From: Candidatus Harrisonbacteria bacterium
GTDB lineage: Bacteria > Patescibacteriota > Minisyncoccia > UBA6257 > 1-14-0-10-40-38
Length of the DNA stretch: 35,003 nucleotides
Reading direction: 5' to 3'
Assembly (NCBI GenBank): GCA_023245035.1
Contig: JAHFLD010000003.1
Coordinates: forward strand, 119,736 to 154,738
Part shown: positions 5,667 to 27,985 of the stretch, one piece after another
Numbering within the stretch: position 1 is the first letter of the stretch
Layout of the letters: every line of letters begins with the position of its first letter
Translations under genes and position numbers: made by a program
The notes under the pieces: generated by a model
The model's database searches: none
What the model saw: only the letters and a program-made list of their open reading frames with translations
What the model was told of the DNA's origin: nothing

Positions 5667-5738
5667 GCGCCCTTAGCTCAGTGGTAGAGCGTTTCATTGA
5701 CATTGAAAAGGTCGGAGGTTCGATCCCTCCAGGGCGCA
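5667..5738 (+). tRNA. tRNA-Val(GAC)
   Basis: GCGCCCT...AGGGCGC-A acceptor; anticodon stem TTTCA-TTGACAT-TGAAA; T-arm GGAGGTTCGATCCCTCC; full CCA not encoded (CCT). Confidence 0.93.
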
Positions 5739-5749
5739 CCTAGATTATA

Positions 5750-5770
5750 AAATACCTTTAAGGTATTTTT
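5750..5770 (+). terminator. Rho-independent terminator after tRNA-Leu/tRNA-Val
   Basis: AAATACCT-TTA-AGGTATTT followed by TT. Confidence 0.6.
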
Positions 5771-5779
5771 AGTCTTATA

Positions 5780-5866
5780 CTGGAGGGATCGAACAGTGGA
5801 GGGGGTCGAGGACCGCGTTTGGTCTCCCGTGTTGGAGATTATCCAGAACCATCGGTTCTGAAAAGA
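5780..5866 (+). other. tRNA-associated structured element, copy A
   Basis: CTGGAGGGATCGAAC (5780-5794) is the exact reverse complement of tRNA-Val 5718-5732; then AGTGGAGGGGGTCG, imperfect hairpin GGACC..GGTCTCC and perfect hairpin CAGAACC-ATC-GGTTCTG; aligns with copy B. Confidence 0.65.
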
Positions 5867-27046: not shown

Positions 27047-27087
27047 TGGTGGACCTAGCCAGAATTGAACTGGCGACTCCTCGTTGC
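27047..27087 (-). pseudogene. Orphan tRNA 3' half (T-arm, acceptor 3' strand, encoded CCA), Ala-like
   Basis: Minus strand GCAACGAGGAGTC-GCCAGTTCAATTCTGGC-TAGGTCC-A-CCA; no matching 5' half found. Confidence 0.7.
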
Positions 27088-27121
27088 CCCGATGGACTTT
27101 GGTGGGCTAACACTGTTTATG

Positions 27122-27193
27122 TGGACCAAGGGAGGATTGAACTCCCGACCTCCTCATTGCAAATGAGGCGCTCTACCACTGAGCTATTGGCCC
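27122..27193 (-). tRNA. tRNA-Ala(TGC)
   Basis: GGGCCAA-TA-GCTCAGTGGTAGAGC, anticodon stem CCTCA-TTTGCAA-TGAGG, T-arm GGGAGTTCAATCCTCCC, TTGGTCC-A; G3:U70; CCA not fully encoded. Confidence 0.94.
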
Positions 27194-27330
27194 ACCAAAG
27201 TCATACGGGATTGTGTTTTGTGACTTCGCTGCGCTTCAGATAAAACGGGAACAAACGAGGCGTAATCGATTTTTACAGTATCAAAATTCGCGCACAGGCG
27301 CAATTTTTTGGTTTGTGATAGAATCGGCTT

Positions 27331-27778: not shown

Positions 27779-27798
27779 TGGTGTCCCCGCGAGGAATC
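27779..27798 (-). pseudogene. Displaced tRNA-Arg 3' end with encoded CCA
   Basis: Minus strand GATTCCTCGCGGGGACACCA; 17/18 match to the 3' end of tRNA-Arg(CCT) (27913-27930). Confidence 0.7.
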
Positions 27799-27896
27799 TC
27801 ACGCGCTTTGCTTTTAGAAACCGACGGTTTCTAATCTCTTCCTGAACGGGAAACCGCAGGCGGTTTCCCGACCCCTTCCACTGTTCGATTCCTCGC
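27789..27896 (-). other. tRNA-associated structured element, copy B
   Basis: Minus strand GCGAGGAATCGAACAGTGGAAGGGGTC-GGGAAACCGCCTGCGGTTTCCC-...-TTAGAAACC-GTC-GGTTTCTAA-...-GATTCCTCGC; ends are a 10-bp inverted repeat; first 14 nt are the exact reverse complement of the tRNA-Arg T-arm. Confidence 0.7.
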
Positions 27897-27913
27897 AAGA
27901 AATTTACTATTTG

Positions 27914-27985
27914 TGCCCCCGCGAGGAATCGAACCTCGATTTTTTCCTTAGGACGGAATTGCTCTATCCATTGAGCTACAGGGGC
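27914..27985 (-). tRNA. tRNA-Arg(CCT)
   Basis: GCCCCTG-TA-GCTCAATGGATAGAGC, anticodon loop GTCCTAA, T-arm CGAGGTTCGATTCCTCG, CGGGGGC-A; CCA not encoded. Confidence 0.93.

Follow-up and report, generated by a model that had tools for sequence, protein, structure and literature searches.

Mobile elements and islands that target transfer RNA (tRNA) genes, which are moved by tyrosine or large serine recombinases, have a characteristic layout. The insertion site lies at the 3' end of the tRNA gene, an intact tRNA is left on the left-hand side, the tRNA 3' end is repeated on the right-hand side, and some elements carry cargo. Here, we describe a non-coding element with this general layout, first seen as two copies, A and B, in a 35,003-nt stretch of a Candidatus Harrisonbacteria genome (contig JAHFLD010000003.1, positions 119,736 to 154,738; hereafter, the window). 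Unlike the known tRNA-targeting elements, the family to which these copies belong has many gene-free members, a covarying core of two hairpins, and at each site an antisense segment of the local target. On balance, copies A and B are probably the structured end module of small mobile non-coding cassettes that possess an arm complementary to the target. Such cassettes would insert mainly at the 3' ends of tRNA and transfer-messenger RNA (tmRNA) genes, with the ends of conserved protein genes as rarer sites.

Layout of the two copies and the wider family

Copy B is located on the minus strand behind the tRNA-Arg(CCT) gene (27913-27985; identified by ARAGORN and Rfam RF00005). The T-arm stretch of this tRNA, denoted S (27921-27934), is matched by a 14-nt antisense segment, S' (27883-27896), which reads GCGAGGAATCGAAC on the minus strand and covers the T-loop and the 3' half of the T-stem. 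An earlier note on this DNA had claimed that this leading segment is the exact reverse complement of the tRNA T-arm, and at the sequence level it is. Next come the single-stranded conserved core AGTGGAAGGGGTCG (27869-27882), delimited by alignment A1 and the covariance model R1 (95.2 bits), and two hairpins defined by covariation among 101 copies: hairpin 1 (CGGGAAACCGCCTGCGGTTTCCCG; 27847-27870) and hairpin 2 (TTAGAAACC GTC GGTTTCTAA; 27814-27834). The right-end motif GCGCGTGA (27799-27806), seen again in many copies, precedes a direct repeat of the tRNA-Arg 3' end (GATTCCTCGCGGGGACAC; 27781-27798; 17 of 18 positions identical), which the earlier note missed and which could close a stem with S'. 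The order is S (from the T-arm to the tRNA 3' end), S', the two-hairpin core, and S again. The fold of copy B is far more stable than that of shuffled sequences (z between -4.6 and -5.2).

Copy A is located on the plus strand behind tRNA-Val(GAC) (5667-5740; ARAGORN and Rfam). A terminator-like hairpin, X, predicted by folding (5742-5775), lies between the tRNA and the copy. The S' segment of copy A (5780-5794; CTGGAGGGATCGAAC) is a 15-nt exact antisense of positions 5718-5732 in the T-arm of its own tRNA-Val. The core with hairpins 1 and 2 (5807-5829 and 5844-5860) occupies 5795-5865 and scores 81.4 bits with R1. No right-end direct repeat is recognisable in copy A. As had been noted, the two copies share the core and both hairpins; the window contains the core sequence common to them, GAACAGTGGARGGGGTCG, two times, compared with 0.01 times in shuffles.

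The genome from which the window is taken (716 kb; 99% complete) has a third copy behind tRNA-Ser(GCT). With this third copy as the starting point, 244 genomes of the order were searched for the pattern, which yielded an 18-copy alignment and, from it, R1. Of the 383 genomes of the class, 127 gave a match to the model (117 of the 338 high-quality ones), many of them with multiple copies, and the copies in the class number hundreds. In the genome that holds the window, R1 detects 10 to 11 copies. The earlier note had overlooked the tRNA-Ser(GCT) copy and about nine others. A census of this whole genome, read in pieces, found 48 tRNA or tmRNA genes, of which ten are followed by a clear element and two (Phe and Ser-GGA) by a decayed one. 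Across the family, a same-strand tRNA or tmRNA gene of one of 36 kinds ends within 150 nt upstream of 103 of 138 copies.

Searches further afield returned little. A scan of 84,980 genomes with an exact 17-mer gave one true match, in Parcubacteria group bacterium LiPW_15. Four exact patterns run against viral contigs gave chance matches only, such as a phage tRNA T-arm. In the window, tRNA alone matched Rfam at gathering scores, and the best match over the element itself was at chance level (E = 0.7), far under its gathering score. Searches of open-access papers turned up nothing on the element, which, given this limit, is weak evidence of novelty.

The structure of the element is supported by covariation. 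Across the 101 aligned copies, 95% of the cells pair, and in 17 of 19 pairs both partners have changed. Covariation scores 0.42 versus 0.15 in shuffles, and compensatory cells number 304 versus 79. The alignment was fitted to the model and hence leans towards it; a MAFFT alignment of 18 copies agrees. The compensatory base changes proposed in the earlier note are therefore genuine, though two copies alone could not have established them. The fixed core consists of a single-stranded GGARGGGGTCG, hairpins 1 and 2, a third hairpin of variable sequence that comes after hairpin 2, and the right-end motif; hairpin X is usual between the target and S'. Predicted folds of the 50 nt directly downstream are more stable for tRNAs with an element than for those without (p = 0.008). 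Given that G.T pairs outnumber A.C mismatches by 21 to 7, the strand with the tRNA sense is suggested to be the folding one, a hint only, as the model was built on that strand. Twenty unrelated loci that contain the exact 17-mer score at most 19.9 bits, whereas the 101 aligned copies score at least 48 bits. Together with the shuffles and the covariation, these control loci exclude chance as the origin of the pattern.

Antisense renewal and movement between targets

Across the family, S' is 10-21 nt long, the longest being that of locus L053. In 94 copies, S' agrees with the T-arm of its own tRNA at 12.1 of 14 positions, compared with 9.7 when tRNAs are permuted (z = 21; the maximum in 2000 permutations was 10.1). 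The gain from the own tRNA falls at the variable positions 57, 59 and 62-65, and the match weakens beyond nt 14-16. In each of the 10 copies of the window's genome, S' matches no other tRNA better than its own (p = 5e-6). The proposal that the leading segment follows its own tRNA thus holds, and copying or selection against the local target, rather than a fixed repeat, was the right idea.

The antisense is a property of the element and not of tRNA flanks in general. A match of at least 11 of 14 positions is present at 78 of 108 tRNAs with a core, versus 14 of 121 others; about ten of these 14, scored as coreless, in fact have a divergent core. Since tRNAs without a core seldom have S', the segment must arrive with the element, and a pre-existing feature of tRNA 3' flanks is excluded. 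The target to which S' corresponds is the tRNA: where the tRNA and the right-hand copy disagree, S' sides with the tRNA in 97 cases against 8 for the copy, which disfavours the right-hand copy as its partner. This copy is commonly altered in the T-loop (GTGAGA, GTTCGC). Among 134 mismatches between S' and its target, G.U (38) is not in excess over A.C (30), and thus nothing indicates that RNA-RNA pairing with the tRNA is selected for; as tested by wobble, such pairing is unsupported.

The element is mobile on an evolutionary scale, its target is duplicated, and the antisense is renewed at each target. The core nearest to a given one comes from the same genome in 28 cases (2.8 expected) and from the same tRNA kind in two (1.6 expected). 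Identical or near-identical cores are located behind tRNA-Ser(GCT) and tRNA-Leu(GAG) in genome G107, and behind tRNA-Pro(GGG) and tmRNA in genome G053, in each case with different X, S' and S. Because identical cores at different tRNAs of one genome have different antisense segments, the element must have moved and its antisense must have been renewed. Of the 138 copies, 100 have a direct repeat of the target (repeat score of at least 14). The end of this repeat usually coincides with the tRNA 3' end or is close to it, and most repeats span the region from the T-loop to that end. At locus L240 (G245:C9:23-304), two tandem cores with a period of 193 bp are found behind tRNA-Glu.

The same layout is encountered at protein genes, whose names rest on a reading of their translations: at the 3' ends of rpsI (L193, L183) and nusG (L189), the 5' ends of lepA (L137) and of a metal-ATPase-like gene (L203), and a further gene end (L144, L202). 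The earlier note had tied the element to tRNA genes. The homologous structured element stands, but a tRNA-specific device is not supported, since the core is also present at protein genes, with the antisense of those genes, and at the ends of cargo islands.

Evidence from empty sites comes from one comparison across congeners, at a protein-gene site, and from one paralogous repeat at a tRNA locus. The insertion between nusG and rplK in genome G331 has an empty counterpart in three congeners; within G331 the 59-nt repeat at this site is perfect, even though the two nearest congeners show a difference of about 15% across the nusG alignment. The paralogous case is the Gln locus in the window's genome, where a repeat next to the occupied copy retains the native flank S|TTTGGACGG, and the occupied copy itself has X-S'-core-S inserted. 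In that genome, tRNA-Gln(CTG) (L126; G000:C4, around 174273-174738) has partial tandem copies of the tRNA and its 3' flank downstream, one bearing the element, and a GIY-YIG gene is located just upstream.

Cargo genes and islands

Cargo genes or whole islands can lie between the target and the module. The largest case is an island of about 7.8 kb between tRNA-Gln and the module (L214), where the match between S' and the tRNA extends over 16 nt and a repeat of the tRNA 3' end follows the module. It encodes a large serine recombinase, a C5 methyltransferase and an AAA-type protein. Smaller cargo includes genes for a metallo-beta-lactamase-fold protein (L216), a UvrD-like protein (L215), an S1-like protease (L217), pilin-like proteins (L037, L232) and GIY-YIG proteins (L030, L134); these names come from a reading of the translations, with only GIY-YIG assigned by a Pfam match. 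In all, the module is found on islands with large serine recombinase, methyltransferase, helicase-like or GIY-YIG genes. Locus L134 is an array consisting of a tRNA, the non-coding RNA module, a tRNA 3' copy, a GIY-YIG cassette and another tRNA 3' copy. Minimal copies have no gene at all, including an integrase.

Several further observations concern genes and junctions near tRNAs. Small genes for GIY-YIG nucleases (80-100 aa) in many cases end inside the 5' end of a same-strand tRNA (L111, L112, L113, L116), and a tRNA is present within 1.5 kb at 12 of the 20 GIY-YIG loci first fetched. Large serine recombinase genes are convergent with tRNA genes, and their C-terminal codons overlap the tRNA 3' end (L229, L232, L233). 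The right end of cargo, before the terminator, is marked by a T-arm-like junction (AGGTTCGAAC.TCGTCC) at nine loci (L032, L036, L037, L075, L078, L085, L184, L204 and L206). Three of the contigs with this junction end about 500 nt or less upstream of it, which suggests a multi-copy element there. A recurrent stretch resembling an open reading frame (VDDVRTYF) near cargo junctions was judged spurious. Finally, the tRNA-Ala(TGC) region of the window (27050-27209) has a 23-nt inverted repeat on its flanks (27088-27110 and 27187-27209) and an adjoining stray tRNA 3' fragment on the minus strand, an arrangement that resembles an old inverted duplication.

Competing explanations and comparison with known systems

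If copies A and B are the end module of mobile cassettes, a site-specific recombinase or nuclease supplied in trans, by the host or by another element, would recognise the folded core. The S' segment, as folded single-stranded DNA or as RNA, would pair with the target strand and align element and target during integration or excision, and the altered T-loop may stop the right-hand copy from being mistaken for a target. The antisense would be made anew from the target at every move. Copies that seem to be the youngest have a direct repeat extending across S, X and S' as far as the core, so that S' might arise by replication slippage or by snap-back copying across hairpin X, although this is a guess. 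As to the enzyme, the sole XerD-like recombinase found in the window's genome (G000:C5:26577-27518; phmmer, E = 2.4e-40) is encoded just upstream of an element-bearing tRNA-Leu(TAG), and as a partner it is a lead only.

A number of results weigh against a cassette of this kind. No enzyme is tied to the family among the large serine recombinases, Y1 transposases, reverse transcriptases and GIY-YIG proteins checked (IS110, TnpB and IscB were not searched). Large serine recombinases are not linked to the core at the genome level (79 of 127 versus 148 of 256 genomes; p = 0.44). Y1 transposases are present in 6 of 20 high-copy and 5 of 20 zero-copy genomes, with none in the window's genome; for reverse transcriptases, the corresponding numbers are 4 and 6 of 20, and four high-copy genomes (G053, G133, G107 and G091) lack both. 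All three were rejected as required partners. GIY-YIG proteins are enriched beside tRNAs yet are not needed, being absent from some high-copy genomes save for one UvrC-sized protein, and were likewise rejected. No excised or circular form of the element was seen. The long repeat of the apparently youngest copies (L200, L177, L193 and L137), which includes the X hairpin and the antisense, is not predicted by simple duplication of an attachment site. Moreover, to our knowledge, a standard integrase renews no antisense copy of its target, and we know of no precedent for this part of the mechanism.

A simpler view would be that the copies are ordinary attachment-site remnants of integrase-driven islands, in which the core is the arm region bound by the recombinase and the antisense is the inverted core-site arm of any T-arm attachment site. 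Direct repeats from the T-loop to the tRNA 3' end, as present in most copies, are usual for tRNA-targeting integrases; large serine recombinase genes end inside tRNA 3' ends at several loci, and one such island has the module; and the only XerD-like gene of the window's genome adjoins an element-bearing tRNA. However, the antisense follows the target despite an identical core, and does so at protein genes, which a fixed attP arm would not do. Large serine recombinases and the core are also unlinked among genomes, and we regard this explanation as possible but doubtful. Alternatively, S' might be the 5' guide and the core with hairpins 1 and 2 the scaffold of an RNA that directs a transposase or nuclease acting in trans, following the logic of bridge RNAs, CRISPR-associated transposons (CASTs) and OMEGA systems. 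The guide-then-scaffold layout, the match to the target whichever the gene, the apparent folding of the tRNA-sense strand, and the preference of S' for the tRNA over a mostly T-loop-altered right-hand copy are all in keeping with such an RNA. The target, however, stays intact in the occupied locus, guide mismatches lack an excess of wobble pairs, and none of the four protein groups looked for is required as an effector; a guided element of this type is possible but rather unlikely.

A regulatory role in cis is improbable. A trailer RNA of tRNA genes, in which S' sequesters the T-arm of read-through precursors and thereby tunes maturation or termination, would suit the location of most copies directly downstream of a tRNA gene, and folding of a joint transcript is indeed predicted to pair the tRNA-Arg T-arm with S' in a long stem. 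Yet the same architecture exists at protein genes and, behind islands, up to about 7.8 kb from the tRNA; its distribution is patchy (12 of the 48 tRNA and tmRNA genes in the window's genome), it is copied within genomes, and it has no G.U bias. Descent from repetitive extragenic palindromic (REP) sequences mobilised by REP-associated tyrosine transposases (RAYTs), or from a retron, diversity-generating retroelement or group II intron, is disfavoured and very improbable. The element is indeed short, palindromic, dispersed and non-coding, and the inverted end segments of copy B resemble retron a1/a2 segments, but high-copy genomes without Y1 transposase and reverse transcriptase, and the lack of an Rfam match, speak against such an origin.

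The mobile cassette end remains our preferred explanation. It is tempting to go further and see a programmable class of mobile element in Patescibacteria, namely, a structured nucleic acid without genes whose 5' segment is rewritten at each site and directs a recombinase to gene 3' ends, but this extension is tentative. The family is present in about a third of the sampled genomes of the class and behind a quarter of the tRNA and tmRNA genes in the window's genome, decayed copies included. If the antisense truly selects or aligns the target, it would constitute a natural retargetable insertion system in bacteria with few genetic tools, and a route by which islands with restriction-modification or other genes enter tiny genomes. 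On a conservative reading, the element is a marker of attachment sites and of the ends of islands in genomes whose mobile DNA is little mapped. In either case, it poses a sharp problem: how is a 14-nt inverted copy of the target made at each insertion?

Similar to integron cassettes and attC sites, the family has small tandem cassettes behind one anchor (L134), folded ends like recombination sites, and variable palindromes. In contrast to integrons, the ends of the element follow the target (e.g., AAACATTGAAAC at nusG) instead of fixed GTTRRRY/RYYYAAC boxes, which are absent at the nusG and rpsI sites; no IntI-type integrase was found in the window's genome, the only genome searched with phmmer, beyond the one XerD-like protein. 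IS110 bridge RNAs, CAST homing guides and OMEGA RNAs likewise have, at the element end, a structured scaffold with a short segment next to it that matches the target, and here, too, this segment changes with the insertion site. They differ in that no effector gene was found in the minimal element described here, that its matching segment repeats the neighbouring target in inverted orientation, and that its targets are mostly tRNA genes. RAYT-mobilised REP sequences are also short, palindromic and dispersed between genes, but this family does not require a Y1 transposase, stands in a fixed relation to its target gene, and has target-derived antisense and direct repeats. The reverse transcriptase that marks retrons, diversity-generating retroelements and group II introns is not required here, and the window has no Rfam intron. 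The closest likeness is to tRNA-targeting integrative elements: the direct repeat of the tRNA 3' end and the empty site in relatives are both present, while an integrase gene within the element is not. Thus, the element does not behave as an integron, a REP/RAYT sequence or a retroelement; it acts like the end of a tRNA-targeting integrative cassette, with an additional feature that this kind lacks.
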